A DNA stretch of 64,000 bases. It comes from Nonomuraea deserti. GTDB lineage: Bacteria; Actinomycetota; Actinomycetes; Streptosporangiales; Streptosporangiaceae. Numbering within the stretch: the first letter of the stretch is position 1; the number at the start of each line of letters is the position of its first letter. Both the position numbers and the translations under genes were made by a program. The DNA is taken from positions 1 to 64,000 of the forward strand of contig NZ_SMKO01000024.1 of assembly GCF_004348685.1 (NCBI RefSeq), read 5' to 3'. Below, in pieces: positions 23,053-58,849 of this stretch. The notes beneath the pieces are model-generated. The model had not been told where the DNA came from. It saw only the letters and a list, made by a program, of their open reading frames with translations, and ran no database searches.

Positions 23053-24345
23053 TCACACCGCGAAAGACGGGGTGAGCCGCAGCCATGATCCAGCGGTGGA
23101 GTAGTCGCGCCAGGGGAAGTAACATAGGGCCGCGTTCGCCCCCGTGATCGCGGAAAGGATGTCCAGCGCGGTGGCCGAGAAGACCACCGGAGCATTCCGC
23201 GACACAACCTCCCCTTGCTGGACGCGGGCGACGTCGACGCGGAAGGTGATGCGATCCCCCGCCCGCATCCCCTGTGTTCCTTCCCCTCGGGTGCCGTAGC
23301 CGAGCAGGCCCGTGTACTCCACCGGCACGTCGAAGGGATCGGCCTCGAGACGGACGTTGGACGGGAAGTACTCGGGGGTGAGGCTGGCCGCAGAGCGTAC
23401 GGCGTTGCCGTTCAGTTCCGTCCGCCGGCCGTGGCGGTCAAGCAGGACCGTCGCCTGCGTGGAGATCCCTTCATGGTCGAAGGGGCGCGAATGACCGCCG
23501 AGAGCGGCATGCGGATCGTCGACTAGAGAGCAGGGCAGATCGGCCATCATATTGATCATCGGCTGCTCCCGCTCGACCATGTCCTGTACGAGGACGCGCA
23601 GGACGGTGGCGGACGGACGGGGAGAGAGGACGAGATCGTCCGCCGATCTCTCGTCCGTTACTGGTGCCAACAAGGCGCCTCCTCGCCAGGCAGCCTCCAC
23701 GGTGAGATCTTCCACGTGGAGATCCTGGAGCCTGCCCGTGTGCCGGGACGCCCACAGCCGCAATGTCCTGCCCCCCTTTTCCAGCTCGTACAAGACCCGA
23801 ACCTCGGACCACGTCTGCGCGAAACCGACGGCAGACCCGTCTGACGAGGCGAAGGCCTCTGCGGTCACATGCTCGGTGACGGCACACTTGACGACCTTCA
23901 TGTCCAGACATTGACGATGAGCAGTCTCGGTGGCCCAGTAGGTGAGCTTCGCCTGGAGTTCGGTCAGCGCTCCGGCAGGGTTGGTGCCCAACTCCTGATC
24001 CAGGAACCGGTCCCGATCCCACCGGTGGGGAGACCATGATGGCGTCCGGTCGCGGTACGCACGACCATGGGGCGCGAGCTCGCGTGCCGTACTTACGAGT
24101 TCGACGCCGACGTGCGCGGCGAGACCGTCCTGACCGATATGGACGTCTCGCCCATCATGGGCCAGGCCAAGCAGGGTGAACCCTTCGCTCTGCGGGGTCC
24201 TCGACCGAACCCCGCGGGGAGAGACGGTATGCGCGCGGCGCAGGCGTGCGGTGGACACCACCTGGATCCGTTCGCCCGGCCGAACCAGCTCCACCAGACA
24301 CAGCGAGTTCCGGGTGGCCGCGTTGAGCAGCTCGTCGTAATTCAT
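23053..24345 (-). CDS. TldE/PmbA-like protease partner
   Basis: A 430-residue protein of the TldE/PmbA side of the TldD/TldE family. It lacks the HExxxH zinc motif, as TldE subunits do, and is expected to pair with TldD to form the closed heterodimer that cuts unfolded peptides threaded into it. Family-like regions are LQAKLTYWATETAHRQCL, LTPEYFPSNVRLEADP and the C-terminal NAPVVFSATALDILSAITG. ATG at 24345 lies one base after the tldD stop, so translation is coupled. It is the last gene of the exporter/repeat-peptide operon. Identity is by context and weak motifs; sequence divergence from E. coli PmbA is high. Confidence 0.65.
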   Translation of the reverse strand: MNYDELLNAATRNSLCLVELVRPGERIQVVSTARLRRAHTVSPRGVRSRTPQSEGFTLLGLAHDGRDVHIGQDGLAAHVGVELVSTARELAPHGRAYRDRTPSWSPHRWDRDRFLDQELGTNPAGALTELQAKLTYWATETAHRQCLDMKVVKCAVTEHVTAEAFASSDGSAVGFAQTWSEVRVLYELEKGGRTLRLWASRHTGRLQDLHVEDLTVEAAWRGGALLAPVTDERSADDLVLSPRPSATVLRVLVQDMVEREQPMINMMADLPCSLVDDPHAALGGHSRPFDHEGISTQATVLLDRHGRRTELNGNAVRSAASLTPEYFPSNVRLEADPFDVPVEYTGLLGYGTRGEGTQGMRAGDRITFRVDVARVQQGEVVSRNAPVVFSATALDILSAITGANAALCYFPWRDYSTAGSWLRLTPSFAV

Positions 24346-24346
24346 G

Positions 24347-25717
24347 TCAGCAGTGCCAATCGAGGCGGTCGAAGCGCATAGTCGGTGAGTAGAGCCCAAT
24401 CAGGACCGACTGTCCTTGCTTCCCGCAGGTCGCGTTGTCACCCTCGACGTCGTCGGCGATGCCTGCCAGGCGATCTATGGCCTCCCGTGCGTCTCCGAAC
24501 AGGTTGACGTCCTTCAGGGGCACGGCTTCTCCCGCGGAGGTCAGATAGTGGGCCGCCGCTGCGGAGAAGGAGAACTCCCCTCGCGCGGGGTTGAACTCAC
24601 CCGATCCGAGCGACGAGATGTACAGCAACCCCGACCCAGGGCACGGCTGTAGTAGGGACGGCACACTATCCTCGCCGCCCAGAACCGAGGTGTTGGAGGC
24701 TCGAGGCAGGGAAGCGTGGCGATAACTCTCCCGGCGCCCGCTGCCACTCGGGGAGTCGAGCCTGGCACAGGTGAGTCGACCGACCACTGTCCCATCGGTC
24801 ACGAGAGGCGTAGGGGCGCAGAACTGACCGTCGTCGTCTACCGCGCGGCTACCCATCCCGTCGGGAAGGAACGGGTCGTCCAGCAGATTCAGAGATGCCC
24901 TTGTGAGCCGTTCGCCCATGAGGCCGACTGAGTAGGGCGAGTTCTTCGCAAGGTTGTCCGCCTCCAACGCGTGACCGATGAGCTCGTGCAGGAACGCCGC
25001 GCCGGTCTTGGGCCCGAACACGACAGGGGTCGTCTTGTGTCCCATAGAGCGGAATCGCAGAAGGGCACGAGCCTGGTCGGCAGCGGACTTGATCAGGTGT
25101 GCGGCTGACTCGACAAAGCTCGTCTCAGCGCTAGCCGGTTCCCAGTGCGGGTTGTTACTCCGAGTGAAGGCACGAGCAGTCGCCGTACCGTCGAACACGG
25201 TGGCGATGGCCCGTCGGCGGCCGCCGCCTACCCGCAGCGCTCGTCGGGTACCGGCAGAGTCCACGATCACACGGTGCTGGCGGAAGAAATCCTGAATGAA
25301 CCGGACCGCTGTGTTGGGCTGGAGCGTCACGCAGGTTTCGTCGGTCAGCGGTCGGGCTGTGGTAGCGGGCACCGTCTCCAACGGACTGCGGCCGCGCCAC
25401 GGCGAGGGGATCCGCGGAGTGCCGGGGCAGAGGGCGCTTATCTTCTCCGCCAGAGTCTGTGGCTCGTGCAACGGCGCGCAGCTGTACGTCCAGACTCCCG
25501 CGCGACGTAAGAGGAGACCGACGCCATACCGCCGGTTCACCGAGGTTGCGGTGGCCGAGACCGCCGGACCGCGCAGTCGCGACTCCCATCGGAGGTCGGC
25601 ACCAGCCTCGACGAAGGCCTGGGCGTATTCGGCTCCAAGCCGCAGACCCTCCTCGCACCAGTGTGCGGCGATATCGATCAGCGAGGACTCGAAGCCCTCC
25701 AGATCCTCGGCCATCAT
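24347..25717 (-). CDS. TldD-like metalloprotease
   Basis: A 456-residue protease subunit with the family zinc motif HELIGHALE at residues 244-252 and a second ligand region ATCGKQGQ near the C-terminus (the GKxGQ signature of TldD). Also visible are GVGLLLRRAG in the N-terminal domain and DSAGTRRALR in the middle. In E. coli the TldD/TldE pair matures microcin B17 and degrades CcdA. Here it follows a (VDA)15 peptide gene and a nucleotidyltransferase gene, so cutting the repeat peptide into short units is a reasonable role. The start codons ATGATG overlap the nucleotidyltransferase stop, so either Met 1 or Met 2 begins the protein. Confidence 0.82.
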   Translation of the reverse strand: MMAEDLEGFESSLIDIAAHWCEEGLRLGAEYAQAFVEAGADLRWESRLRGPAVSATATSVNRRYGVGLLLRRAGVWTYSCAPLHEPQTLAEKISALCPGTPRIPSPWRGRSPLETVPATTARPLTDETCVTLQPNTAVRFIQDFFRQHRVIVDSAGTRRALRVGGGRRRAIATVFDGTATARAFTRSNNPHWEPASAETSFVESAAHLIKSAADQARALLRFRSMGHKTTPVVFGPKTGAAFLHELIGHALEADNLAKNSPYSVGLMGERLTRASLNLLDDPFLPDGMGSRAVDDDGQFCAPTPLVTDGTVVGRLTCARLDSPSGSGRRESYRHASLPRASNTSVLGGEDSVPSLLQPCPGSGLLYISSLGSGEFNPARGEFSFSAAAAHYLTSAGEAVPLKDVNLFGDAREAIDRLAGIADDVEGDNATCGKQGQSVLIGLYSPTMRFDRLDWHC

Positions 25718-26787
25718 CGAAACTGTGTCCGGGAGATCAGGCCTCGCTCGTCGAGGGTTTTGAGGATCCCACGAACTCGCCCGGCCGTCAGCGGCACTTG
25801 CTCTGCGCCGACTGTGAAGGGTTCCAGGTGGAGGGCTGCATCGATGATCTCCTCGTCCGGACGGCCGTTGCACAGGCTCCAGATCAACGCCACATGAGGC
25901 TGAACGACGAACTGCCTCTTCAGTTCGTCGTTCAGCAGCACGCCCTGGGTCAGGTGGATTGTGGTGAAGTCGGGGTTCCGTCGATAGCCTTCCGGCCCGG
26001 CGATCCAGAACGGCCATTCAGTCAGGTGCGTGCCCTCCCACCCGAGGATCTGGGCCGCTGCCATCAGCGTCTGCGTGAAGGTCGCGAACTCGGTGGCGCC
26101 CGATGTGTAGTCCTCGCGCGCCCACGCCCCCGTTTGGAGGAATGAGAACCGGTGGAGTGGGAAGGCCGCTCCTGCGGATCGGCGGAGCTGGCAATGCACC
26201 CACTTGTGACCGTAGTAGAGATCCCCCGCTGCCGCGGCGACCGCTTTGCCGGCACACAGCATCAGGACCTGCCCGATGAGGGCGGCCGATTCCATATCAC
26301 CGTCCTGGTGCGCACCCCGGAAGTCGGACAGGTGCCCGTTGGCCTCGACCGCCCACGCTGACAGCACCATCTGGCGGAGCTTGTCTTCGTTACGCAGGAG
26401 CTGGTCGCGGAAGGTTGTCAGACGGGGGGAGTCCTTGATGACTTCGCTTTGGCGCATCCGTATGAGGACGTCTAGCTGTTCTTCGCTCAGCTGCTTGGAC
26501 CGCAGGTCGGTACGGCTGAGTTCCCAATCGGCCAGCTTTCGTAGCGTATTTTCGTACCATTCAGCGGTATAGGTCTCGATATCCAGACGTTGCCCGCCAA
26601 GCGGCTCCTGCCGTACCCCGGTCTTCTCGGAGTCCGACGTGATGGCGAACACGTCAACATCGCTGGTGGGGCTGCCAAGTCCAGCGGTGAGACTGCCTGC
26701 GAGATAGACGGAGTCCAACTGAGCGTCTGCGATGAAGGTAGCGACTGCAGTTCGAGCAGTGGCGAGCTTTTCTTCGCGATAGGCCAT
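25714..26787 (-). CDS. Nucleotidyltransferase-fold protein of the repeat-peptide operon
   Basis: A 357-residue protein. Residues 28-48 (YLAGSLTAGLGSPTSDVDVFA) carry the minimal nucleotidyltransferase signature: Gly-Ser and the DxD pair at about 43 and 45, with a third acidic residue expected in QRLDIETYT (about 67-74). The middle is helical, and the last 30 residues (LTAGRVRGILKTLDERGLIS) look like a winged helix, which might recognise a peptide or act as a PqqD-like element. The likely reaction is transfer of a nucleotide to a small molecule or peptide. ATG at 26787 is preceded by ACGAGGC. Upstream in-frame codons exist but encode a shadow of the VDA repeat. It overlaps tldD by four bases. 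Confidence 0.7.
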   Translation of the reverse strand: MAYREEKLATARTAVATFIADAQLDSVYLAGSLTAGLGSPTSDVDVFAITSDSEKTGVRQEPLGGQRLDIETYTAEWYENTLRKLADWELSRTDLRSKQLSEEQLDVLIRMRQSEVIKDSPRLTTFRDQLLRNEDKLRQMVLSAWAVEANGHLSDFRGAHQDGDMESAALIGQVLMLCAGKAVAAAAGDLYYGHKWVHCQLRRSAGAAFPLHRFSFLQTGAWAREDYTSGATEFATFTQTLMAAAQILGWEGTHLTEWPFWIAGPEGYRRNPDFTTIHLTQGVLLNDELKRQFVVQPHVALIWSLCNGRPDEEIIDAALHLEPFTVGAEQVPLTAGRVRGILKTLDERGLISRTQFR

Positions 26788-26857
26788 CGATTTGCCTCGT
26801 AATCCATAGAAGGGGCGCGAACGCTTACCGCATTCACGCCCCGTTGAAAGCGACCGA

Positions 26858-27022
26858 TTAGGCGTCCACGGCGTCCACGGCGTCCACGGCGTCCACGGCG
26901 TCCACGGCGTCAACCGCGTCTACGGCGTCAACCGCGTCCACGGCGTCAACCGCGTCCACGGCGTCAACCGCGTCCACGGCGTCAACCGCGTCCACGGCGT
27001 CGAACTCCAAGATGTCCTCCAT
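26858..27022 (-). CDS. Repeat peptide MEDILEF-DA-(VDA)15
   Basis: A 54-codon gene on the minus strand: MEDILEF, then Asp-Ala, then fifteen exact Val-Asp-Ala tripeptides, then TAA. GAGAGGAGGATCCC directly before the ATG at 27022 is an excellent ribosome binding site. The product has at least nineteen acidic residues and no Lys, Arg, Cys or aromatic residue except one Phe. The leader is only seven residues, far shorter than in usual RiPP precursors. It lies between the exporter permease and a nucleotidyltransferase, in one operon with TldD/TldE. The closest idea is the pheganomycin precursor, which contains tandem cores used by the ATP-grasp ligase PGM1; a PGM1-like ligase is encoded at 41289-42629. 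Other possibilities are an acidic carrier or scaffold peptide. Confidence 0.8.
   Translation of the reverse strand: MEDILEFDAVDAVDAVDAVDAVDAVDAVDAVDAVDAVDAVDAVDAVDAVDAVDA
26861..26995. repeat. Tandem 9-bp (partly 18-bp) repeat array
   Basis: Fifteen 9-base units encode Val-Asp-Ala on the minus strand. The five units nearest the stop codon are all GTGGACGCC. The ten units nearest the start alternate between GT(G/A)GACGCG and GTTGACGCC, making an 18-base period. The pattern suggests growth by slippage or unequal exchange while the reading frame and peptide were kept. Confidence 0.95.
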
Positions 27023-27087
27023 GGGATCCTCCTCTCAGCACTCGTCAACGACCCCGGGCCGGACGGCGCGGGGGGTCTGGGACATGG

Positions 27088-27816
27088 TCATCGGCGCGCG
27101 TGAAGCACCGCACGGTGGATGACCAGGGCTCCTACTGTGAACCACAGGAGGCCGACCGCCGCCTCTCCGCCCACGGCTCCGAGAACATCGGGCTCCTCGA
27201 TGCCCTGCATGACGTGGCTGAGCGGGAAGACAGCCGAGACGGACCGCACGGGCCCAGGCAACATGTCAGCCTGGACCAGGGCGCCGGACAGAACCATGAG
27301 CGTCAGATATGTAAGGTTCGGCGGCACGAAGACATCTTTGATCGTCATAGACAGACCGCTGACCATCGTCCCGTAGCCAAAGGAGCTGATCAGTGACAGC
27401 ACGAGAAGCCAAGCGAACGTTTGGGCAGGCAGCGGAAGCACGCCGAACAGGGCACAGCACGCTAGGTATGTGATCATTCCGCTGATGAAAGCGTCCACAA
27501 GATGTGGTAGCGCTCTTTGGCAGACGGCGCCGAGTTTGTTCTGAGGGCTCGCCAGCCAGATGTCCAAGGTCCCGTAAGAACGTTCGTTGCCCACTGACAA
27601 TGCCATGCCGTAGATCACGGCGTGGGCGCCAGCGAGCAGACTGGCGCCGATCAAGGTTGGGCCGACGACGGCTCCGTAGTGCGAGCTGAGCGCGCCAAAG
27701 GTCACGGTCAGGCCGATGGGCCTGACAATGCGTGAGCTGAGGTAGCCCAGCGGGTTCGACCAGGTGAACAGAGCTCGGTAGGACAGTAAAGCCCCTCGGA
27801 CGACATGGTTGTCCAT
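27088..27816 (-). CDS. ABC-2 type exporter permease B
   Basis: A 242-residue membrane protein with about six hydrophobic segments and the ABC-2 pattern (GALLSYRALFTWSNPLGYLSSRI at the N-terminus; a conserved permease loop ALSVGNERSYGTLDIWLASP; a C-terminal PLSHVMQGIEEP motif). Such permeases work in pairs with a single ATPase to export peptides, lipids or drugs. The gene lies three bases after the end of the other permease and 65 bases before the repeat-peptide gene. The likely cargo is the mature product or the peptide itself. Confidence 0.8.
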   Translation of the reverse strand: MDNHVVRGALLSYRALFTWSNPLGYLSSRIVRPIGLTVTFGALSSHYGAVVGPTLIGASLLAGAHAVIYGMALSVGNERSYGTLDIWLASPQNKLGAVCQRALPHLVDAFISGMITYLACCALFGVLPLPAQTFAWLLVLSLISSFGYGTMVSGLSMTIKDVFVPPNLTYLTLMVLSGALVQADMLPGPVRSVSAVFPLSHVMQGIEEPDVLGAVGGEAAVGLLWFTVGALVIHRAVLHARR

Positions 27817-27819
27817 GGG

Positions 27820-28554
27820 TCAGGCCTCCAGCGGAATGGCACGGGCGCGCGCCGCGTGCTCGACACGCCTGACGGACAGCAGAATGACGAGGTAAATCAG
27901 GGTGCTCTGCGACAGCGCTGTCGCCAACTCTGCGACAGCGCCGCCGTGCACCCATGCCATTACGTGGGATTGCGGCACCAACCACGCGATGGGCTGCATG
28001 AAGGGGGGCAGCGCCGTACTTGGGACAAGTAGGGTACTAAGCGCGATGAGCACTCCAGTCAACCCGTTGGTCATGCCGGGAGAGGAGGGAAACCGCAGTA
28101 GAGAATACGACAGCAGGCCTACGAGGGCGGTTGTGGCGACCGCAAGACACAGGCCACCAAGGAACCATCTGCTCCAGTCGAAGTTCGGTGACATCCCCCA
28201 TATGAGGGTCAGCATCAGCAGCGTTCCCGGCAGTGAGATGAGCGATTGTACGGCGACTCCTACCAGGCGCCCCACCACCAAGGGAATCAGCCCACCCGGA
28301 CTGCTGAGCGCCGGATACAGTGTTTTCCACCTCTTCTCCCCTGACAGAGATACTAGGAGATCCACGATCACCGCGTTCAGCATGCCGATGCCGGCTATTC
28401 CTACTGCCGTCGCGGCGTCTGTATGGGTGGCGGTGTGGCTGTAGAGGATGAAGGCGAAGACCGCCGGCATCGCGAGAGCCGCGAGAAGGGACATCGGGCT
28501 GACGGCCTGGGTTCTGATCTGATCGATTGCCGCCCGACAGGCTGTGGGGAACAT
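27820..28554 (-). CDS. ABC-2 type exporter permease A
   Basis: A 244-residue six-helix permease (first helix AALAMPAVFAFILYSH, later GIAGIGMLNAVIVDLLVSLSG and VVGRLVGVAVQSLISLPGTL). The C-terminal IAWLVPQSHVMAWVHGG matches the PxxHh motif in the partner permease, showing that they are related halves. The ATG overlaps the ATPase stop by one base, so all three exporter genes are translationally coupled. Confidence 0.8.
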   Translation of the reverse strand: MFPTACRAAIDQIRTQAVSPMSLLAALAMPAVFAFILYSHTATHTDAATAVGIAGIGMLNAVIVDLLVSLSGEKRWKTLYPALSSPGGLIPLVVGRLVGVAVQSLISLPGTLLMLTLIWGMSPNFDWSRWFLGGLCLAVATTALVGLLSYSLLRFPSSPGMTNGLTGVLIALSTLLVPSTALPPFMQPIAWLVPQSHVMAWVHGGAVAELATALSQSTLIYLVILLSVRRVEHAARARAIPLEA

Positions 28555-29501
28555 CAGCGGACCTCGGTCATACTGAGGAAGACCTCTTCCAGCGTTGGCG
28601 GGGAGACCGACAGGCTCGGGATCTGAGCGCCGAGTTCAGCGAGCAGCCATTGCACTGCCATTCCGCCGTCCCGGACGCGCAGCCGTGTTACCCCCCGATC
28701 CTGCTTGATGTCCATCAAGCCGGGGCAATTTGAGCAGTTACCGGTGGAATCGGAACCGTTCCAGATCACCTCAACGACGAAACCATGCTGGCGTGCGGCC
28801 CCTAAACGCAACTCCGCAGGGGTGGCTTCGGTATGGACTGATCCGTCCTTCATGAGCACCACCCGCGAACTGAGTTCTTCGGCTTCTCGCATGTCATGCG
28901 TAGTGAGCAGAACGCTGTGGCCCTCGTCGGCGAAGCTGCGGACAAGGCGCCGCATGGATGCCGCCGAGTGTGGATCGAGGCCCGCGGAGGGTTCGTCCAG
29001 GATGAGGACCGGGGGCTTGTGGAGCAGCGCCCTGGCCAAATGGAGCCGCTGACGCATGCCCCTGGAGAAGGTGCTGACTGGTTCGTCCGCGCGATCGGTG
29101 AGATTGACATGGTCAAGGAGTTCGGCGGCGCGGCGTTTGAGGGCCTGTCCACGCATGCCGTACATCAGTCCAAAGAAGGCAAGGTTCTGCAGCGCGGTCA
29201 GGCGCGGATAGAGTCCCGAATCTCCGCCGAGGCTCGAACCGCACGCCAGCGCGGCTTTTCGCCGCTCACGCACCACGTCGTATCCCTCGATGACTGCTTC
29301 CCCGGCTGTGGGCAGAAGAAGACCGGTCAGCATCCGGACTGTCGTGGTCTTTCCCGCGCCGTTGGAGCCGAGAATAGACACGAGTTCACCCGGCCTGACG
29401 ATGAGATCGAGATCATCAACCGCCACGCGTGTCGAAACGTCGTTGCTGGTGAACTCTCGGCGTAGTTGTCGGGTGGCGATCCCGCTGACAGATGTAGGCA
29501 T
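28554..29501 (-). CDS. ABC exporter ATP-binding protein
   Basis: A 315-residue ATPase of the DrrA/CcmA type. Walker A is GSNGAGKTT, the signature is FSRGMRQRLHLARAL, Walker B is VLILDEPSAG and the switch His is in LLTTHDMREAEEL. The C-terminal extension has a CSNC pair and a beta-rich domain, common in drug exporters of this type. ATG at 29501 is preferred to GTG at 29507, with GGAG nine bases upstream. It is the first gene of the seven-gene minus-strand operon, so export or self-protection comes with production. Confidence 0.88.
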   Translation of the reverse strand: MPTSVSGIATRQLRREFTSNDVSTRVAVDDLDLIVRPGELVSILGSNGAGKTTTVRMLTGLLLPTAGEAVIEGYDVVRERRKAALACGSSLGGDSGLYPRLTALQNLAFFGLMYGMRGQALKRRAAELLDHVNLTDRADEPVSTFSRGMRQRLHLARALLHKPPVLILDEPSAGLDPHSAASMRRLVRSFADEGHSVLLTTHDMREAEELSSRVVLMKDGSVHTEATPAELRLGAARQHGFVVEVIWNGSDSTGNCSNCPGLMDIKQDRGVTRLRVRDGGMAVQWLLAELGAQIPSLSVSPPTLEEVFLSMTEVR

Positions 29502-30225
29502 GGTCACCGCTCCATAGGCAGGAGATTCCCAGGGTATTTGCCCGATTCCTTGCGGACGCTGGGCCTTGTAATGAAACTAACTCGAGGATATTTCCGCTCA
29601 CTGCCAGCAATGCACCGCCGATGGAACTCAATGATAGCAACATAGTCACTCGGCCTGTATGCCAGTGATTTGACCGCCCGTACGAGTTCGTACGCCCGGT
29701 CGAGTTCTCCACTCCAGGCGAGGCTCGCGTCCTCCCCGCCGAAGCGAGATTCAGGGCAGACCCGCTTCAGCGCCTATATCAGAGCCGGCAGGTCGCTGAC
29801 CTCCAAATCAACTCCGACGCCGGACTTTATAAATGAGTATTGACCTCGATGTATTGCTGCTGACCTAACTCCATCCGGAGATGGTAAGCGGAAATGAATC
29901 AAAGGGCTCTCTGTCTATTCGCATAGTCGCCATATCAAGCACCAAGGGTGTGATCGGGATTCGGGATGCCGACTTCCAAGTGCAAGGCCATTATGCACGG
30001 CATCACGGGGAAAGGTCGAAGTTCTCGTGCAAGACCAATTCCGCTTTGCTTTTCCAGGTGAGATGATTCTGGATCATGGCATGCACAATAAATGATGTCA
30101 ACTACACCTCTTGCACAAATGCCGCGACTATTGGCGGTTTTTCAGGCGAGGGCGGTCTGACACAGGGTGGGGAAGCGACTGGCGGGCCGATCTCGGACCA
30201 GCATCTCCGTCGTGCACTTGGCAGA
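29502..30225. other. Divergent intergenic region, lower GC
   Basis: About 0.7 kb upstream of the exporter operon with visibly lower GC than its surroundings. No clear gene. A frame at 30076-30258 begins MACTINDVNYTSCTNAATIG and looks peptide-like, but it lacks a good ribosome binding site and runs into the inverted repeat at 30226. The promoter of the minus-strand operon should lie near 29520-29650. Confidence 0.4.
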
Positions 30226-30417
30226 CCCTTCAGTCGTAGATCGGTGAGGCCGCTGTAGTCGTCTGGGTCGTGGCTGATCGGGGTGGTGGCCGCGCAATCC
30301 GGCGAGCGGCTCGGCGGGTTCGGTGGCAGGCGCGGGCTCGGGCTCGATGCCGGCGTCGCCAGGCCGGCCAGGCAAGCGCCCGGCGGAGCTGTTCGGCCGG
30401 ATCGGACTGGTCGGCCA
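30226..30417 (+). repeat. Inverted repeat copy L (partner 34193-34385)
   Basis: The reverse complement of these 192 bases occurs at 34193-34385 with only three differences by eye (two substitutions and one base in a C-run). The pair brackets the hydantoinase-amidase cassette. Copy L continues inward into transposase-like sequence; copy R does not. Confidence 0.9.
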
Positions 30418-30610
30418 GGGCGACGAGCAGGCGTCGGATCTCGTACGCGATGAACCGCAGGGGCGGGATGCTACCGGTGGGCCCGGCGCGAGCCCTCCGC
30501 GTGGGACGGGTCGGCCTCCGCGCTCGAGTGGAGTTCGTCTGGGGCGAACATGCCTGCTGCCGGACGGTGACGATATCCCGGACGGCCAGGAAGGCGGCAG
30601 CCGGCGCTGG
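30226..30610 (-). pseudogene. Transposase C-terminal remnant
   Basis: On the minus strand the frame reads IPPLRFIAYEIRRLLVALAD followed by EQLRRALAWPAWRRRHRARARACH, the C-terminal pattern of a common actinobacterial DDE transposase (WRRRHQARARxxH). The rest of the gene is missing. The last part lies in the inverted repeat. Confidence 0.5.
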
Positions 30611-31395
30611 CCGGGCAGGTCCCGCTGTGGCTCAGCGCCGTGGTGATCAGGGCCAACGACGCCGAGGCCCGTACCTCGCAGCGGATGCGAAAGCAGCACG
30701 CGCCGGCAATGCGGATGCGTGATCGGCAGGCCGACTACCTAACGAGCACTCCCGCTCCCTGGCACCACCAACAACCGCGCCCCCGGAACTTGGTCAAGCC
30801 CTACCGCCGAGCCGGCCGAGATCGTACGGTCTACGGGAGTGTGGCACCGGGGTCGAGCAGAGTCACCAGCGGTCAAGAAACCCGCTCCGATACCGCCATC
30901 CAACCCTCGCGAATCGCGCAATCAGCTTCTGCTGGAACGCAAGGTTCGCGATACTCCGGCCCAATCCAGCCGACGTTTCGCCCGGTCCCCATGAGCCGTC
31001 AATGACTGACGGGCATAGTCGGCGACGCCCGTTCCAGCAGCACTACCTCTTGATCTCATCCATGGCCAGCCGGAGCACGCATGAGCCGCAGCTGGGAGTC
31101 AGATCCTTGTTCAACTGCCGATAATACTCAGTCGAACAAACGGCTCAGGGAGACAGATTGGTTTGAGCGTCACACACGTGCGCTCGACGAGGAACCGCCG
31201 TATTGTCGCCAGGAGATCGCATCAAGCCGTGGGCGGGAACGCTTCGCCATGCGGCCTCAACCCTTTATCACACAAGGCGATCCGCCTCCCCGAATGCACT
31301 TCGTCCCGCCGATCGGCGTATCGCCCTGTCAATGCGCAGGTTCCGTCACGTTCCTCGCACTCACCACATATCGCGCACTCACTGGAGGACATATC
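30611..31395. other. Intergenic before hydantoinase gene
   Basis: About 0.78 kb without a supported gene. The open frame that runs into the hydantoinase from 31081 lacks a ribosome binding site and any recognisable domain. The hydantoinase promoter should be here. Confidence 0.4.
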
Positions 31396-34192: not shown

Positions 34193-34385
34193 TGGCCGAC
34201 CAGTCCGATCCGGCCGAACAGCTCCGCCGGGCGCTTGCCTGGCCGGCCTGGCGACGCCGGCATCAAGCCCGAGCCCGCGCCTGCCACCGAACCCGCCGAG
34301 CCGCTCGCCGGATTGCGCGGCCACCACCCCCGATCAGCCACGACCCAGACAACTACAGCGGCCTCACCGATCTACGACTGAAGGG
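34193..34385 (-). repeat. Inverted repeat copy R (partner 30226-30417)
   Basis: Nearly identical reverse complement of copy L. It ends about 215 bases before queD. No transposase part extends beyond the repeat on its outer side. Confidence 0.9.
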
Positions 34386-45212: not shown

Positions 45213-45237
45213 GTCAGCCGGTGGAGGAGAACACTGG

Positions 45238-47758: not shown

Positions 47759-47779
47759 ACTCGCTCCCGCACAGACCAT

Positions 47780-48740: not shown

Positions 48741-48842
48741 AGTCTAGACTGCCCGATGACACATGGCATTGTGTCACACGACGGGAAATCCACGACGAAG
48801 CCGGGCGACCGCCACAGGTCGCTCGGCGACATGGAAGGACGA
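48741..48842. promoter_or_regulatory. Promoter/leader of the extra alaS
   Basis: A perfect palindrome AGTCTAGACT (48741-48750) follows a possible -10 (TACGAT). In the leader a GCGACC/GGTCGC hairpin with a six-base loop lies shortly before the start. I see no T-box element. An upstream in-frame ATG at 48756 exists but the extension does not look like AlaRS. Confidence 0.35.
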
Positions 48843-51603: not shown

Positions 51604-51909
51604 ATGGGACGACGGGGCTACCCGCCGGAGTTCCGGCGCAAGGTACTGGACCTGCTCGAAGCAGGCCGCGCTGCCACCGAGCTGGCGCATAACCTGGACA
51701 TCAGCACGCAGACGATCTACACCTGGCGACGCCAAGACCGTATCGATCGCGGCTTGGAGCCGGGCCTGACCAGCGGCGAGAAGGCCGAGCTGGCGGCCGC
51801 CAAACGGCGCATCGCCGGGCTGGAGACCGAATTGCAGGCCACCCGCCGGGCCATCGAGCTCATTCGCGAGGCGGCGCCCCCAAAAGACGGTTCGCAGCCA
51901 TCGTGGTGA
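51604..51909 (+). CDS. IS3-family orfA (helix-turn-helix)
   Basis: A 101-residue protein: MGRRGYPPEFRRKVLDLLEAG with a helix-turn-helix (LAHNLDISTQTIYTWRRQ), then a leucine-zipper-like coiled coil to the end. It overlaps orfB by seven bases, the usual place for the programmed shift that makes OrfAB. It appears intact but orfB is not, so transposition is unlikely. Confidence 0.85.
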   Translation: MGRRGYPPEFRRKVLDLLEAGRAATELAHNLDISTQTIYTWRRQDRIDRGLEPGLTSGEKAELAAAKRRIAGLETELQATRRAIELIREAAPPKDGSQPSW

Positions 51910-52327
51910 TGGCCGGCGAAGGCATCCCGGTCGAGGTCGCCTGCCACGTGTTGAACGTGTCGGTGTCCGGCTACTACGCCTGGCGGGTTCGGCCGCCCTC
52001 GCCACGGGCCATCCGGCACGCCTGTCTGACCGACCTGATCCGGCAGATCCACCAGGACTCGCGCGGCACCTATGGCGCCCGCCGGGTGTGTGCCGAACCG
52101 GCCCTCGGCCACCAGGCCACGGTCAGCCACGGCGCGGTGGAACTGCTGATGCGCCGGGCCGGGCTGGAAGGCCTCAGCCGGCCTGAGTGGCGGCTTGCCA
52201 AGCCCGACCAGATCGCCACCGACCTGGTCGACCGCGCCTTCACCCGAACCGGGCCCGACCAATTGTGGATCACCGACATCACCGAACACCCGACGCACGA
52301 GGGCAAGGTGTACTGCTGCGTTCGCGC
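51903..52327 (+). pseudogene. IS3-family orfB, 5' part
   Basis: The frame has the OrfB N-terminus (VACHVLNVSVSGYYAWRVR, HQDSRGTYGARRVCAE) and reaches the first catalytic Asp (LWITDITEHPTHEGKVYC). There the rve core stops; the sequence continues as an unrelated IS30-like tail. The matching 3' end is at 55918-56115. Confidence 0.75.
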
Positions 52328-52430
52328 TCAACACCAGGCCCGAAAGACGCTCGGATGGAAGACACCGGCAGAAGCGTTCAGCGAGCATCTAGACTTGCTG
52401 CTGAGCAGCAGTGTTGCGACGACTGATTGA
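52328..52430 (+). pseudogene. IS30-type transposase C-terminal fragment
   Basis: ARKTLGWKTPAEAFSEHL and SSVATTD are the C-terminal signature of IS30-family transposases, here fused in frame to the truncated IS3 orfB. It shows that an IS30 element once inserted and was later mostly lost. Confidence 0.55.
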
Positions 52431-52614
52431 CTCCGAGCAAATTCGGGTCCTGGGCCTTCACTCAGCGGGCCAGGGGCTCCGGACTGCTGCCGTCGATGGG
52501 CAGCGTGGGGTCCTCCCTCTTAACCGGCTAACACCTATGTTTCCCCAGATCAGCGACACGCCGTGATCTGTTACCTGCTGGCCGGATGGGGTCATCGCGG
52601 GTACATCTGTCCTC

Positions 52615-53700
52615 ATGATCGAACAGGGACTCCGGCTGGAGGAGCGTGAAGGGAGCTGGATGCTGGCCGGACCCTCCGCCGGGCAGTTCGTCCTGGTCGA
52701 TGAGTATCTGGCGTATCTGGCAGACCGGAACTACTCGCCCAAGACCGTCCGCGCCTACGGCTATGACCTGCTGGCATTCTGCCGCTGGCTGGCGACCGAG
52801 GACGTGTCGCTGGGCGAGGTGACGACCGAGACGCTGCTGAAGTTCCTGCACGCCTGTCGCGAGGCCAAGGTCCCCGGGCGTCGCGGCGGCCCGAACGTCG
52901 TCACCTTGTCAGGCCGCCGGATGGATCAGTACGCCGCCACGACGATCAACCGGCGACTGGCGGCCATCTCGGGGCTGTTCACGTTCGTCACGATGCGCGA
53001 CCCGGAGTCCATCAACCCGGTCCCGAAAGGACGCGAGGCGCGCTGGCGGGTGGCCGGCGAGCGGTCCGGGATGCTCGCGCACACGATCCGCCGCCCGAAG
53101 AATCGCTCCTCGCTACGACTGCGCGAGCCACGGCGCCTGCCCAAGGCACTGTCCCAGGCCCAGGCGGCCGAGTTGCTGGCCAGCTTCCACACCTGGCGCG
53201 ACCGAGCGATCGCGGGCCTGATGCTGTATTGCGGGCTGCGCTCGGCCGAGGTGCTCGGCTTGAACGTCGCCGACGCCGACATCGGTGGCCGCTGGGCGAG
53301 CGTGATCGGCAAGGGTGATCGGCAGCGGCGCGTCCCGTTGGACGCCGACGTCGCCTCGGTCATCCAGGTGTATCTGCTGGCTGAGCGTCCCGAGTCGACC
53401 GAGCAGCGGCTGTTCCTGGTGGCCAAGGGCCCCAACCGAGGACGACCGCTCACAGCGGCCGGGCTGCGCACGATCTTCCGCTATCACCGAGCCGTCAGCG
53501 GGATCACCGCAGGTCATCCCCACGCGCTGCGACACACCTTCGGCACCGCACTGGCCGAAGCCGGAGTCGACCTGGCGGTGATGCAGGCGTTGCTCGGTCA
53601 CGCGCACGTCGACACCACCGCCCGCTATATCCATCTGGCACCCGCCCACGTGAAAGCCGAGTTCGATGCCGCACGCAGCCGCATCCGCGCCCAGCAATAG
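52615..53700 (+). CDS. tnpA: Tn554-type tyrosine recombinase A
   Basis: A 361-residue recombinase, the same length as Tn554 TnpA. N-terminal SAM-like domain (DEYLAYLADRNYSPKTVRAYGYDL), catalytic Arg in LMLYCGLRSAEVLGLN, the Lys region in IGKGDRQRRVP, HALRHTFGTALAEAG with His and Arg, and GHAHVDTTARYIHLAP with the Tyr nucleophile. All catalytic residues are present. A decayed partial copy lies at 22783-22975. Confidence 0.85.
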   Translation: MIEQGLRLEEREGSWMLAGPSAGQFVLVDEYLAYLADRNYSPKTVRAYGYDLLAFCRWLATEDVSLGEVTTETLLKFLHACREAKVPGRRGGPNVVTLSGRRMDQYAATTINRRLAAISGLFTFVTMRDPESINPVPKGREARWRVAGERSGMLAHTIRRPKNRSSLRLREPRRLPKALSQAQAAELLASFHTWRDRAIAGLMLYCGLRSAEVLGLNVADADIGGRWASVIGKGDRQRRVPLDADVASVIQVYLLAERPESTEQRLFLVAKGPNRGRPLTAAGLRTIFRYHRAVSGITAGHPHALRHTFGTALAEAGVDLAVMQALLGHAHVDTTARYIHLAPAHVKAEFDAARSRIRAQQ

Positions 53701-55571
53701 CCTGCACGCCGATTACCTGGACTATCTGCAGCGGACCGGGCGAGGCAACCGTCCCTATCAGCAGGCCGCGCGAGTGTTCTTCGAGCGTTGGCCCGACCCC
53801 GGGTGCTGGGCCGCGGAACCGTTGGAGATCCGCTTGTCGGCTGATGCGCACACGCGGCCGATCATCACCTTTCTCATGCTGCACCGCGGACTACGACCCG
53901 GCTACGACTACCTGCTGGAACGCAAACTGTCCACGTTCTGGCGAGAGATCGAGGACTCGCCCATCGCTGCGGGAGTGCAGCGCTTCATGACCGCCGCCGA
54001 GGACCTCGGCTTCTCCTTGCGCGTGCGTCTGGCCACCGGCTCTCAGGTGCCGGCCCGGCTGCTCATCCAGGCCGGACGCCCTCTGGAGCAGCTCACCTTG
54101 GACGATCTGGAAGAGTTCGCCGCCGCCTGCGCCGCGCGCAGCGCCCGCACCGGCAAGGACCACCGTCACTATCTGTCCGCGCTCAGCCAATGCCCAGCGG
54201 GTCCTGTTCCACCTGGGCATTATCGACACGCTGCCGACGATGGGCGGGCCGGTCCCCTTCGAGCAGCGGCTGGCCGAGGTGGCAGAACCGATCCGCACCA
54301 CGATGATCGCCTACCTGGAACGCAAGCGCGCCACCTGCCAGCCCAAGACCGTCTCCGCGATCGCCACCCGGCTCAAACACTTCGGCCTCTTCCTCACCCA
54401 CATCGATCCCGGACTCACCCCGATCGCCCAGCTGGACCGCCAGCGTCACATTGAGCCCTACCTCACCGCCCTGGTCGAGGCCGTCAACCCCAAGAACGGC
54501 GAAGTCATCACCGTCGCCGACCGCTCCCGCCGGGTGATCGCGCTGACCGGCTTCCTCACCGATATCACCGAGTGGGGCTGGGCTGAGGCGCCCGCCCGCA
54601 AGCTGGTGTTCCGTGATGACAACCCCAAGCTCCCGCAGGTGCTGCCCCGCTACCTGCCCATCGATGCCGATCGCCGCCTGACCGAAGAGCTCCGCGACCG
54701 TCCCGGCAACCAGCTGGCCGCCTGCGCCCTAAGATTGCAACGCGCCTGCGGGCTACGCATCGGAGAACTCCTGGACCTGGAACTCGACTGCGTCCACGAG
54801 GTTCCCGGCCATGGCAGCTGGCTGAAGATCCCGCTCGGGAAGCTGGAGACCGAACGCATGGTCCCCCTCGACGAAGAGATCCTCGACCTGATCGACCACA
54901 CCATCGAGCTCCGAACGCACGGCAGACCCATGCCGCATCCCCGCTACCGACGTCCCGCGCAGTTCCTGTTCACCCACCACGGCCGCCGCCTCGGCCAAGG
55001 AGCCGTCCGCGCCGAACTCGATCGCGCCGCTCACCAAGCCGGACTCGGTCACATCACCTCCCACCAGCTCCGCCACACCTACGCCACGGCCCTGGTGAAC
55101 GCCGGGGTCTCGTTGCAAGCGCTGATGGCGTTGCTCGGACACGCCTCCGCCGAGATGAGCCTGCGCTATGGACGACTGTTCGACACCACCATCCGCGCCG
55201 AATACGAACGAGCCCTCGACCTGGCCAAACAACAAGCCCACACCCCGGCCCCCGGCCGTGTCCACCTGCCCCTGGCCGACATCACCGGCGGCAAGGACTG
55301 GAAAGACACCCCGCTGATCAAATCCAGAATGGCCGGCGGCTTCTGCCTACGCGCACCCGCCCAAGGCGCCTGCACCTACGCCAACATCTGCGAACACTGC
55401 CCCAGCTTCCACACCGAACCCAGCTCGCTGCCCATCCTCGCCGCCCAGCGTGTCGACGCAGACGCGCTCGCCCAAGACGCCGAAAATCGAGGCTGGATCG
55501 CCGAAGCCGAACGACACCGCCGGCTCATCACCCGACTCGACCACCTGATCAGCGAGGCCCACGCCGGATGA
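53666..55571 (+). pseudogene. tnpB: Tn554-type tyrosine recombinase B, frameshifted
   Basis: Read through one frameshift near 54189 the product is about 634 residues, the TnpB size. The first part ends in RTGKDHRHYLSALS; the next frame continues NAQRVLFHLGIIDTLPTMGG. The second part has the full catalytic set (LQRACGLRIGELLDLE, SHQLRHTYATALVNAG, GHASAEMSLRYGRLFD). Either the gene is inactive or the shift is a sequence error. An independent start at 54240 would still encode the catalytic domain. Confidence 0.75.
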
Positions 55572-56195: not shown

Positions 56196-57623
56196 TTAGT
56201 TCGATGTTGCGAGCAACGACAGTTCCCCGAGGCCAGCCCGCCGAGCCAGGCGGTTAGCCAGCTTGCGCGATTCGCTAACCAAGGCGGGCACATCGACGCC
56301 CATTAGCTCGCCGTCGGCGACCCTTCGCCGTCCCGCCACCCAGACGTCTTTCACTTCGCGAGGTCCCGCGCAGTAGACGATCGCCTGGAACGGATCGTGG
56401 ACATTGGCGAGGGCTGGCGAGCCGCCGTCGAAGACAACCAGGTCGGCGGCCTTTCCGGGTTCCAATGAACCGACCGCGGTTTCGAGGTGCAGCGCGGCGG
56501 CACCCTCGATGGTCGCCATGCGGAAGGCCTCACGCGCGGTCAGAGCAGCAGGGTCGAGCTGATCCAGCCGTTGGAGGAGAACGCCGGTCTTGATCGCTTC
56601 CAGCATGTCCTGGCGGTCGTTGCTGGCTGGGCCGTCAACGCCGAGCCCGACATTGATCCCGCTACCGCGCAGCCGTGAGACCGGGCATACCCCCGACGCA
56701 AGGATCATGTTCGATACCGGGTTATACGCTACGCCGACGCCGTGCGATGCCAAGAGGCGGATGTCAGTATCCTCGAGCCAGACGCAGTGTGCTGCGAGTG
56801 TCGGCAAAGCGAACAGTCCGTTCTGTGCGCAGTACGCGATCGGGCTCATATGTCGGGACTCTCGGATGAACTCGATCTCCTCTCGTGTCTCATGAAGGTG
56901 GATGTGGATTCCGTCTGCATTCAACGATGCGAAGTCAACCGACCGTGCGAACATCGAAGGGGCTTGCGCAGCCACCGTCGCCATTCCGACGCGGAACCGG
57001 CACAGCGTACTGGCGGCCGCGGCCTCACATAGCGCGGCATGTTCGGCGAACACATCCTCCACCGGAGTCCCTGGCCGCCGATCACTCGCGCCATAGGAGA
57101 CGATTCCCTTCAGGCCCAGTTCCTCGAGGCCCTGGACAACTCCAGGCGTGACGGACGTCGTCCTCGGGTCACAGACGAACATGTCGTTCGTCAGCGTGAT
57201 CCCGGTCCTCAGCATCTGAACACCGCCGAGCAGCGTACCGATGAAGGCGCTTTCCCGGTTGAGGTGGGGGGCGACGGCGTCGATCAGGACTCGAAGCCAG
57301 TCACCGAGAGCGAAGTTCTCCGCGATTCCTGTCACGAGGGCTTCGGAGAAGTGCCCATGAGTATTGATGAATCCGGGGGTGACGATATCGTTGGACCCGC
57401 CGAGAACGGGACAAGAAGGAAACCTGCTGGACAGATCGTCGAACGACCCGATGTCTGCGATCGTGTCGCTCACCACGCGCACGGCGCCATCTGAAATCAT
57501 CTCGGGTTCTGACGCTGTCAGGACGTACTTGCCGCGAATCAGGAATCCAGCATCCGACTGACGGAGATGGGCGGTCCCCTCCGAAGACATCGTCGGATGC
57601 AGGCGGTCGGACCGTTCAGTCAT
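56196..57623 (-). CDS. Amidohydrolase (deaminase/chlorohydrolase subfamily)
   Basis: A 475-residue TIM-barrel metal hydrolase. Metal and catalytic motifs are INTHGHF (about 86-92), IHLHETREE, LAAHCVWLED and LGVDGPASND. This set is typical of the TrzN/SsnA/8-oxoguanine-deaminase/SAH-deaminase group, which deaminates purines, pterins or triazines. In a cluster that makes 7-carboxy-7-deazaguanine, deamination of a guanine-like ring is a reasonable guess. ATG at 57623 is chosen because GGAGGG lies just before it. It runs in the same direction as, and about 160 bases downstream of, the StrR-type regulator gene. Confidence 0.82.
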   Translation of the reverse strand: MTERSDRLHPTMSSEGTAHLRQSDAGFLIRGKYVLTASEPEMISDGAVRVVSDTIADIGSFDDLSSRFPSCPVLGGSNDIVTPGFINTHGHFSEALVTGIAENFALGDWLRVLIDAVAPHLNRESAFIGTLLGGVQMLRTGITLTNDMFVCDPRTTSVTPGVVQGLEELGLKGIVSYGASDRRPGTPVEDVFAEHAALCEAAAASTLCRFRVGMATVAAQAPSMFARSVDFASLNADGIHIHLHETREEIEFIRESRHMSPIAYCAQNGLFALPTLAAHCVWLEDTDIRLLASHGVGVAYNPVSNMILASGVCPVSRLRGSGINVGLGVDGPASNDRQDMLEAIKTGVLLQRLDQLDPAALTAREAFRMATIEGAAALHLETAVGSLEPGKAADLVVFDGGSPALANVHDPFQAIVYCAGPREVKDVWVAGRRRVADGELMGVDVPALVSESRKLANRLARRAGLGELSLLATSN

Positions 57624-57784
57624 CGAATTCCCTCCATTCCCCATGCCATGTCGGAGTCAGTCTGATTTTCTATCGGCGATGCGGGACATCGGAGATCTAC
57701 GCCTCCCTCGATGTCGCGCCATCTGGCGCTTCGCCCTCACTGGCCTTGAGCCCTCGCGGGGCAGGCCTCGAAGCCGCCGAAGCT

Positions 57785-58849
57785 TCAGAGCCCGGACGCG
57801 CCCCGGGCCTTGCTTTCGGGCATGAGTCGAGCGGACCCTTCCAGTTCCTGAGCGAACTCGTCCCACAACTGCGCGTACCGTCGAGCGAGTTGCACCAGGA
57901 TGGGCACACTGTGCGAAGGCACCGCCGAGGCGAGAGAGGCCGATTCCAACAGGCTTGATGCGTTCGCCTGCAACACTCGGAGAAGCTGGCGTCCGGCCTG
58001 CTTGTGGCGCATGGAAGGATCGCAGGCGAGCTTGGTGACGATGCTGACCGGATCCACCGCCGTCGACAGCGAGGCCCGCAGCGGGCGCGACTCCGAGCGG
58101 CGCCTGGCCGACGACACCCTGGAGTCTGGTCGGCTTTCGTCGCACGCGTACGGTTCCGGTATCGGGTCTTCGCCTCGTGCCAAGCGGCGGCGGACATCGG
58201 CCACCGTGTTCGGCGATATCCCAGAAATCTTGGCCACCTCCCGCAGCGATGACCGCGGTTGGTCCTCCAGCATCTTGGCGGCCTTCAGCCGACCTTCCAC
58301 CGTGCTCAACGGCCGGGTTCTGCCGTCTCGTCCCACTCGAGCGGACGGCAGCGATGACACATCCTGGGCCATGTGCCGCATCTCTGCGACGATCTTGGCC
58401 GCCATACCGACGACCTCGGCGATCGCCCGATCGGACATCTCAGGGTGCGACGTTATGATGCGTGCCGCGGCCGCACGCCGGTCGGCGCGCGACAGAGGGA
58501 GGCCATGCTTCACATTCGCCTCGACGGCGCAGAGGAATGCGTCCTCAGCAGTTCCGTCTAAGAACTCGACATTGATGGATTCTTTCCCGTTGAGCACCGC
58601 TGCCATGAATCGATGGGCACCGTCGACCACTTCCATCGTTCGCCGGTCCACGAGGATCGGCGGGAGTTCGACATCGATCTCCGCGAGGCGCGCGACATGC
58701 TCCTCGTCCCTTCCTCCCAGGCGTGGAGATTGCCCCAGCGAGAGGCTGGCCAGGGGGACAACCCAGGGCCCCCGGCCTGCGGAAAGGTCGTCGATCGCGA
58801 CACCGCCGGAAGGGGGCATCGATTCTTCGTAGAGAGCCGATTTCGACAT
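57785..58849 (-). CDS. StrR/ParB-type cluster activator
   Basis: A 354-residue regulator with a ParB-like N-terminal domain (VPLASLSLGQSPRLGGRDEEHV, ELPPILVDRRTMEVVDGAHR, AVEANVKHGLPLSRADRRAA) and two helix-turn-helix units (MSDRAIAEVVGMAAKIVAEMR; SLREVAKISGISPNTVADVR). This is the layout of StrR, NovG and related pathway-specific activators of streptomycin, aminocoumarin and glycopeptide clusters. It is therefore the probable activator of the 23-58 kb cluster. ATG at 58849 is preferred over the TTG six codons upstream. Confidence 0.85.
   Translation of the reverse strand: MSKSALYEESMPPSGGVAIDDLSAGRGPWVVPLASLSLGQSPRLGGRDEEHVARLAEIDVELPPILVDRRTMEVVDGAHRFMAAVLNGKESINVEFLDGTAEDAFLCAVEANVKHGLPLSRADRRAAAARIITSHPEMSDRAIAEVVGMAAKIVAEMRHMAQDVSSLPSARVGRDGRTRPLSTVEGRLKAAKMLEDQPRSSLREVAKISGISPNTVADVRRRLARGEDPIPEPYACDESRPDSRVSSARRRSESRPLRASLSTAVDPVSIVTKLACDPSMRHKQAGRQLLRVLQANASSLLESASLASAVPSHSVPILVQLARRYAQLWDEFAQELEGSARLMPESKARGASGL

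Follow-up and report, generated by a model that had tools for sequence, protein, structure and literature searches.

A minus-strand operon at positions 23053–29507 of a 64,000-nucleotide stretch of Nonomuraea deserti DNA (positions 1 to 64,000 of contig NZ_SMKO01000024.1; hereafter the window, whose contig is 71.8 kb long and whose assembly totals 10.7 Mb) is well supported by sequence comparison as the biosynthetic cluster of a ribosomally synthesized and post-translationally modified peptide (RiPP), of a subclass that is seemingly undescribed. Its genes overlap or are spaced by at most about 70 bp and encode, in order, an ABC ATPase, two ABC-2 permeases, a 54-amino-acid peptide built of tandem tripeptides, a nucleotidyltransferase (here called NTP), TldD and TldE. 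We hypothesize that this peptide arm makes a poly-tripeptide to which NTP transfers a nucleotidyl group, with kinases supplying the nucleotide, TldD/E cutting the polymer and the ABC proteins exporting the product; we put the probability of this full explanation at about 50%. A first-pass annotation of the region had proposed a RiPP-type arm that includes TldD/E and contributes a Val-Asp-Ala part, which the operon and its relatives bear out, and all of the parts that it named are present in the window (Pfam, open reading frames, Tandem Repeats Finder (TRF)). NTP, to which it gave no more than a place in its list, emerges as the central enzyme. The features of the arm are as follows (L022 and L023 are the corresponding regions of Micromonospora sp. 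MW-13 and Streptomyces poriferorum; L084 and L085 are two further Streptomyces regions).

28554–29507, minus strand: ABC exporter ATPase (Pfam ABC_tran, 2.8e-31; 66–67% identical to its counterpart in L022/L023)
27820–28554, minus strand: ABC-2 permease 1 (Pfam ABC2_membrane, 3e-5, slightly below the family cut-off)
27088–27816, minus strand: ABC-2 permease 2 (Pfam ABC2_membrane, 2.2e-9)
26858–27022, minus strand: precursor MEDILEF-DA-(VDA)15, 54 amino acids (TRF and translation; matching arrays in L022, L023, L084 and L085)
25714–26787, minus strand: NTP with a C-terminal RiPP recognition element (RRE) (Pfam NTP_transf_2 and PqqD, both weak; AlphaFold2; PDB matches)
24347–25717, minus strand: TldD metalloprotease subunit, motif HELIGH, start assumed (Pfam PmbA_TldD_3rd; 50–56% identical to L022/L023)
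23053–24399, minus strand: TldE-like subunit without HExxxH, start assumed (Pfam PmbA_TldD_3rd, 8.3e-6; 36–37% identical to L022/L023)

The precursor reads MEDILEF, then DA, then exactly 15 VDA units, and TRF places the tandem array at 26861–27001. When units are counted from the C-terminus back to the first one without a middle Asp or Asn, the window array has 16 units, of which the first is FDA; the same count gives 11 units in L022 (6 VDV, 2 ADV, 2 TDV, 1 VDA), 15 in L023 (12 VDV, 3 IDV), 12 in L084 (11 ANV, 1 DNA) and 14 in L085 (12 ANV, 1 ANI, 1 DNA). The leaders share an acidic ED/EN...EF motif. Except in L022, codon changes between adjacent units are mostly silent: 20 synonymous against 1 non-synonymous in the window (the latter at the FDA/VDA boundary), 9/6 in L023, 11/2 in L084 and 18/3 in L085. 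This synonymous excess, together with the occurrence of arrays at the corresponding position in four further genomes, argues against a chance DNA repeat and points to selection on the array as protein, as far as codon comparison can tell, rather than to DNA-repeat drift. The window peptide is composed solely of M, E, D, I, L, F, V and A, so that it has no Ser, Thr or Tyr (nor any Lys or Cys). Phosphorylation or nucleotidylation of a hydroxyl is therefore impossible, and any kinase in the cluster cannot be there to phosphorylate hydroxyls of this peptide; the target must be a carboxyl, a carboxamide (of the Asn residues in L084/L085) or a terminus. The C-terminal residue of the five arrays is A, V or I.

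The AlphaFold2 model of the window NTP (predicted local distance difference test (pLDDT) 91.1, predicted template modelling score 0.91) has two parts. In comparisons with the PDB, residues 1–296 match ANT-4, an enzyme of the kanamycin nucleotidyltransferase type (Z 11.9, root-mean-square deviation (rmsd) 5.0–5.1 over 237 residues, 11–12% identity), and residues 266–357 match the N-terminal RRE of MccB, the best-ranked hit for this part (Z 8.8, rmsd 2.4 over 78 residues), bearing in mind that a Z near 8 may be generic. The same residues superpose on TigE, TbiB1 (leader bound), TruD and another heterocyclase; among the listed matches restricted to residues 266–357, 11 of 12 are RiPP enzymes (seven are MccB entries) and one is a methyltransferase. 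The C-terminal domain thus resembles the RREs of MccB, TigE, TbiB1 and TruD, and in the model it is a candidate leader-binding element. At the sequence level, the window NTP scores 20.3 bits with NTP_transf_2 (cut-off 21) and has a weak C-terminal PqqD match; PqqD is matched in three of 12 NTP members, and above the family cut-off in that of L085 (2.9e-5). Pfam detected no ThiF domain in the window NTP. Residues G31, S42, D43, D45, R67 and D69 are invariant in all 12 aligned members. Because of the ANT and RRE structural matches, the PqqD matches and the invariant catalytic residues, we consider NTP to be an RRE-fused, probably active nucleotidyltransferase. Elsewhere, in L021 (8120–12480), the neighbours of a distant NTP relative are PqqD as a gene by itself, an AurF-type oxygenase and a gene resembling asparagine synthase (the last recognized by eye), as if the NTP–RRE fusion had been split.

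The arm recurs as a unit. When a genome collection described as covering 84,980 species was scanned with an alignment of three NTP sequences, 10 NTP relatives were returned, two of which, at 56% identity, hold the whole arm: L022 (genome G450) and L023 (genome G451). Matches to the NTP profile are rare: five of 394 genomes of the class at 1e-15, the window's own included, and, at 1e-20, 4/160 genomes of the Micromonospora genus of G450 and 7/327 genomes of the family. The genus of S. poriferorum has a match at 1e-15 in 35 of 392 genomes, and the 14 regions read from those 35 include two further whole arms, L084 and L085 (NTP 39% and TldD 39% identical; TldE-like protein recognized by Pfam). 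The neighbourhood comparison that the first-pass annotation had called for thus finds the tandem-tripeptide peptide, NTP and TldD/E together in five genomes, the window's among them, and the precursor is directly upstream of NTP in all five. The genes neighbouring the arm vary between genomes, and the arm itself is constant.

A tandem precursor is present at some NTP loci only. Sphaerisporangium corydalis (L029, genome G452), L100 and L101 have NTP, TldD, exporter and NDK-like genes together with a candidate precursor of 16 amino acids, MGDEIIEEEELGMIVI in L029 and MGEDIVVEEELGTNAI in L100/L101; on sequence, this may be a version of the tandem type that has one core only. (G1152 is apparently G452/L029 again, at near-equal coordinates, and is not counted twice.) A second RiPP type uses the same NTP–RRE family at 13 loci (L009, L018, L025–L028, L030, L031, L079–L083): all 13 have a single-core leader–core precursor ending in YLFGVH or YLLGVR/H and a 730–766-amino-acid protein with a cyclophilin-like C-terminus, 12 have a PPDK-like enzyme (not L083) and 12 a B12-type radical SAM protein (not L009). 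L024 coincides with L009, and L103 with L030, so each of these places is counted once; L025/L079 and L081/L082, about 94–95% identical around NTP, are kept as separate loci. A short precursor gene beside modifying enzymes, the mark of a RiPP cluster, is found in 5/5 tandem and 13/13 second-type loci. We also note similar-looking proteins with HCHG/HCHS motifs near NTP in L084 (15866–17143) and L100 (10723–12066), for which Pfam gave no family.

These loci bear on the idea that the tandem peptide is no product at all, being for example metal-binding or structural, with NTP and TldD/E regulating or degrading it. Acidic repeats could bind metal, and TldD/E have general proteolytic roles as described in PMC10885120. 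We nevertheless regard this as highly improbable: an RRE-bearing enzyme and an exporter adjoin the precursor in all five tandem loci, and two of the arrays are ANV, which is not acidic.

TldD and TldE are co-conserved with the exporter across the whole arms. A profile built from three TldDs matched the E. coli-type TldD 5nj5 at 7e-40, and the HExxxH motif is present in the TldDs of all eight loci inspected. Modelling reported in PMC10885120 predicts that TldD/E release tripeptides, which fits a precursor with a period of three, and the same source describes a microcin C analogue of Yersinia that is processed by TldD/E. A different role would be that of a protease freeing cargo from a carrier: the tandem peptide would be a reusable scaffold, as in the pearlins, whose C-terminus or Asp side chains are activated by NTP, to which a small molecule made by the neighbouring genes is attached and modified, and from which TldD/E cut it off. 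The constancy of the arm amid differing neighbours would suit such a scaffold, as would the TldD/E-like Amm12/13, which according to PMC12715798 free a C-terminal dipeptide from the scaffold in ammosamide biosynthesis. Yet no PEARL/lantibiotic-dehydratase domain occurs among the window genes scanned, one end would suffice and 11–15 like units would be unnecessary, and, with candidate precursors as short as 16 amino acids (MGEDIVVEEELGTNAI in L100/L101), the unit itself looks like the core; we think the scaffold unlikely.

Another observation to emerge from these loci is that NTP lies in a nucleotide-kinase neighbourhood. A kinase-like gene (dTMP-kinase, divergent NDK, PPDK, uridine-kinase or pyruvate-kinase type) is found within about 10 kb in 28 of 32 NTP loci, the window being one of the 32, and this count is weakened by the fact that several kinase queries derived from the same loci, so that those loci matched themselves. 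Regions L079–L092, none of which served as a kinase query, have one in 11 of 14 cases; L085 has two kinds, its PPDK match presumably being a housekeeping enzyme. In a Pfam search of 13 whole genomes, NTP had a dTMP-kinase or NDK match no more than 10 kb away in six; copy number and genome size would lead one to expect 0.14. Five of the seven genomes without one have a PPDK-like gene, the other two being the window's genome and G045. There is an NDK-like gene in L100 and L101 and a PPDK-like gene in L103. Upstream of the RiPP arm of L022, and on its strand, there are uridine-kinase, dTMP-kinase and pyruvate-kinase folds, and by their families they could represent the three steps from nucleoside to triphosphate. 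Similar-looking P-loop proteins stand beside NTP in L023 (5395–6456, GRGSGGKT) and L087 (14172–15272, GRQGGGKT); we considered them as HPr-kinase relatives, found no credible Pfam match and did not count them as kinases.

The most economical reading, by analogy with known systems, is a peptide–nucleotide or nucleotidyl-activated conjugate, because the window peptide has no hydroxyls, the RRE is MccB-like, kinases are near and TldD/E have a precedent with the microcin C analogue. The short acidic leader (MEDI-x-EF) would be bound by the C-terminal RRE of NTP, and the ANT-like domain would then act on the poly-tripeptide, whose substrate units would be x-(Asp/Asn)-(Val/Ala/Ile), either transferring a nucleotidyl group or activating a carboxyl or carboxamide by nucleotidylation. 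Activated nucleotide may be supplied by the nucleotide-kinase-like enzymes that the clusters encode. TldD/E would cut the polymer into short units, probably tripeptides, and the ABC exporter would release these. In the window genome, which has three dTMP-kinase matches, the kinases would be the two that lie in a second arm, at least part of which would in that event be the payload pathway, and a second alanyl-tRNA synthetase (AlaRS) there could serve as immunity. The features of the second arm are listed below.

31081–33030, plus strand: amidohydrolase, first gene of the arm (Pfam Amidohydro_1, 3.4e-12), which we take to be hydantoinase-like
32727–33827, plus strand: isochorismatase-fold hydrolase, true start probably later (Pfam Isochorismatase, 2.4e-28)
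34539–35138, plus strand: queD (Pfam PTPS, 1.1e-26)
35066–35887, plus strand: queE (Pfam Radical_SAM, 3.1e-8)
35888–36460, plus strand: folE (Pfam GTP_cyclohydroI, 1.3e-47)
36790–37776, plus strand: RimK/MptN-like ATP-grasp ligase (Pfam RimK, 7e-12; NCBIfam MptN, 2.3e-29, under its cut-off)
37665–38837, plus strand: KAS III 1 (Pfam ACP_syn_III_C, 5.1e-26)
38774–40021, plus strand: acyl-CoA dehydrogenase (Pfam Acyl-CoA_dh_1, 3e-22)
40018–41277, plus strand: class III aminotransferase (Pfam Aminotran_3, 1.4e-81)
41283–42629, plus strand: PGM1-like ATP-grasp ligase (Pfam PreAtp-grasp, 1.3e-25; PGM1_C, 3.1e-17)
42705–43088, plus strand: FlK-like thioesterase (Pfam FlK, 1.4e-17)
43184–44194, minus strand: APH-fold phosphotransferase (Pfam APH, 4.7e-20)
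44311–45138, plus strand: orphan protein of 275 amino acids (no Pfam or NCBIfam family)
45211–45978, plus strand: dTMP-kinase-like 1 (Pfam, 6.1e-14; 31% identical to the dTMP-kinase-like gene of L022)
45975–46748, plus strand: dTMP-kinase-like 2 (Pfam, 7.2e-10)
46607–47758, plus strand: KAS III 2 (Pfam, 5.6e-29)
48756–51530, plus strand: second AlaRS, full-length (Pfam, 2.7e-183; second genomic copy)

The first-pass annotation had counted two kinases in this arm; two there are, and Pfam (Thymidylate_kin) identifies them as dTMP-kinase-like. Its gene list left out the orphan (44311–45138) and the amidohydrolase/isochorismatase-fold pair (31081–33827). Pfam confirms the 7-carboxy-7-deazaguanine genes folE, queD and queE and finds no queC domain among the window genes scanned; FolE, QueD and QueE without QueC would make up a pathway ending at 7-carboxy-7-deazaguanine. 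The orphan has no plasmid match and none in the 393 other genomes of the class (1/394, its own), and its single-sequence fold (pLDDT 34) is too poor for use.

As a set, the second arm is not a constant partner of the peptide arm in the sequences compared, because neither PGM1 nor queE, alaS or the orphan turned up in the relatives searched. PGM1 gave no match at 1e-5 in the genomes of L022, L023 and L029 (two tandem, one single-core), all of which have NTP and TldD, and none within the 20-kb stretches L084 and L085; of six genomes searched for it, that of L028 has one match, on another contig. The queE, alaS and orphan genes are absent from the relatives' stretches that were searched with them. 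With regard to graspetides, which are marked by an ATP-grasp cyclase conserved with the precursor, RimK has a weak match in L084 and none in L085, and the ATP-grasp genes of the window are confined to the second arm. Within the genus, PGM1 at 1e-60 is found in one of 54 genomes, the window's own. Plasmid searches returned relatives that are all below 60% identity (PGM1 21 records, dTMP-kinase-like 22, RimK-like 39, TldD 55), and around the PGM1 gene of S. anthocyanicus the only gene in common with the second arm is of the isochorismatase family. The first-pass annotation, which had joined the two arms in one hybrid pathway, had named as its refutation homologous neighbourhoods in which they never occur together; for the second arm as a set, that is what we observe.

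A serious, if tentative, explanation is therefore that two independent clusters happen to be neighbours on one island: a RiPP arm supplied with nucleotides by the host, and a deazaguanine/PGM1/KAS III cluster that is unrelated to it and brings its own resistance gene, the AlaRS. The absences just described speak for this, as does the layout, in which the arms lie on opposite strands (23053–29507 on the minus strand; 31081–51530, starting on the plus strand) with a 1.5-kb gap between them and insertion sequence (IS)-like and integrase genes nearby. The kinases, however, speak for a connection. Most NTP loci have a kinase-like neighbour and the window's only ones found are in the second arm, which partly rescues the link; the two dTMP-kinase-like genes are, by this neighbourhood argument, the best candidate for what joins the arms. 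Moreover, on S. durmitorensis plasmid p1 (L008), the direct neighbours of NTP are a thymidylate-kinase gene and two genes for KAS III, and the region also holds a P450, a nitroreductase and a PEP-type enzyme; L089, described below, is a second hint of this kind.

The proposed pheganomycin-like route, in which PGM1 would join a non-ribosomal amino acid to cores taken from the tandem precursor, fares less well. A PGM1_C ligase and a tandem-core precursor do lie 14 kb apart in the window, and L089, a distant NTP relative, has NTP, NDK-like and PGM1-like genes within about 8 kb of one another's neighbours, the PGM1-like gene being about 7 kb from NTP. Against these stand the lack of any PGM1 match in the three relatives' genomes and in L084 and L085, and the position of the window's PGM1 gene in the other operon, among amino-acid-type genes of its own. 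Ligation by PGM1 to the tandem peptide, as first proposed, is thus unsupported, and we regard it as improbable.

The second AlaRS shares 70.6% identity with the full-length S. poriferorum enzyme and 60.5% with the other AlaRS of its own genome, as would be expected on sequence of an acquired copy; any link to the cluster is tentative. It figures in a more elaborate scheme: Trojan-horse tripeptide–nucleotides would be made en masse from 11–15 cores, each given a cluster-specific nucleotide (here deazaguanine-derived, and differing from genome to genome) by the RRE-guided NTP, and released by TldD/E as tripeptides fit for peptide permeases; the aminoacyl-nucleotide set free would poison the synthetase of the last residue (here AlaRS), and the second AlaRS would confer immunity. 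We consider this scheme a long shot.

Several findings count against the nucleotidyl-transfer reading or parts of it. The ANT superposition is loose (rmsd 5), and both Pfam matches of the window NTP fall under their cut-offs. According to PMC9239234, MccB-like chemistry requires a C-terminal Asn; all five arrays lack Asn, and also Asp, at that position. The codons of L022 (5 synonymous, 9 non-synonymous) do not show the synonymous excess. Four of the 32 loci (the window, L083, L086 and L087) have no tmk, NDK, PPDK, PRK or PK match within about 10 kb, seven of the 13 genomes miss in the Pfam test, the kinase of L021 is weak by Pfam (0.0024), G045 has a weak kinase match only, and L102 has no kinase match of the kinds searched. 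The window's own dTMP-kinase-like genes are 19–20 kb from NTP, on the other strand and beyond the 1.5-kb gap. No ribosyl- or phosphoribosyltransferase was recognized in the second arm. As for immunity, two AlaRS matches occur in three of five genomes searched (G000, G451, G452), so an extra copy is not cluster-specific; the extra matches of G451 and G452 lie away from the RiPP arm, and one in G451 is partial. Nor is there a sign of an extra valyl-tRNA synthetase near the Val-ending arrays, the class I motif K[MFL]SKS being absent from 51 kb (L022) and 47 kb (L023).

The setting resembles that of a genomic island. G+C content drops from 70–77% at 2–16 kb to 60–67% across the cluster, and Pfam recognizes an IS-like pair and two phage-integrase-family genes at 51604–55571, between AlaRS and the last two genes; both features fit a mobile island. 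The membership of those last two genes in the cluster is uncertain.

56196–57644, minus strand: amidohydrolase 2 (Pfam Amidohydro_1, 6.2e-53)
57785–58867, minus strand: helix-turn-helix regulator (Pfam HTH_24 and HTH_23 only)

The regulator is putatively of the StrR type, as the first-pass annotation labelled it; Pfam, which gave helix-turn-helix matches only, did not confirm this. Pfam found no domain in the unassigned frames 22687–23046, 30142–31005, 33981–34602, 47737–48392 and 59465–60187. Outside the cluster, TRF reports a 51-bp tandem repeat of 2.8 copies at 13720–13862.

Searches of an open-access library (subscription literature was outside the coverage) brought up no account of a RiPP that combines tandem tripeptides with an RRE-fused nucleotidyltransferase, and no described pathway with this combination of genes, as the first-pass annotation had surmised; no word beginning with 'nucleotidyl' or 'TldD' occurs in the main text of an RRE survey (PMC12710340). 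Nucleotidyltransferases are accessory genes in some daptide clusters, as noted in PMC10036551. If our reading is correct, RiPPs would have in NTP, beside MccB and unrelated to it, another kind of leader-guided enzyme for nucleotidyl transfer, a poly-tripeptide precursor would be paired with a protease modelled to release tripeptides, and one precursor could give possibly many small peptide–nucleotide molecules. An ANT-like domain joined to an RRE is a marker that is easily mined and already indicates at least two precursor types, and the kinase association makes a testable prediction about the chemistry.

Known systems each share a part of this design. Pheganomycin is made by a PGM1 ligase from a tandem-core precursor, and a PGM1-like ligase and a tandem-core precursor are likewise in one region here; unlike that system, the genomes of three relatives were searched and are without PGM1. 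The pseudomycoidin lasso peptides, as described in PMC9266682, involve the kinase PsmK and the nucleotidyltransferase-like PsmN, so that, by description, a kinase is again paired with a nucleotidyltransferase-type enzyme on a RiPP; in contrast, the asparagine-synthase-like cyclase domain of lasso clusters is absent among the window genes scanned, and the window precursor has no Ser. Like microcin B17, the arm is a RiPP system with TldD (HExxxH) and a TldE-like partner, but it differs from linear azol(in)e-containing peptides in that YcaO is absent among the window genes scanned and TldD/E lie inside the cluster, beside a tripeptide array. The pearlins (ammosamide, 3-thiaglutamate) offer a TldD/E-like protease in the ammosamide cluster, whereas the PEARL domain (PF04738) is absent among the window genes scanned. 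With microcin C the arm has in common an RRE fused to a nucleotidyl-transferring enzyme, a minimal precursor with an exporter, accessory immunity genes and, in the Yersinia analogue covered by PMC10885120, processing by TldD/E. The two differ in that MccB is ThiF-like and acts on a C-terminal Asn, whereas NTP has an ANT-like domain and is paired with an 11–15-fold tripeptide array.

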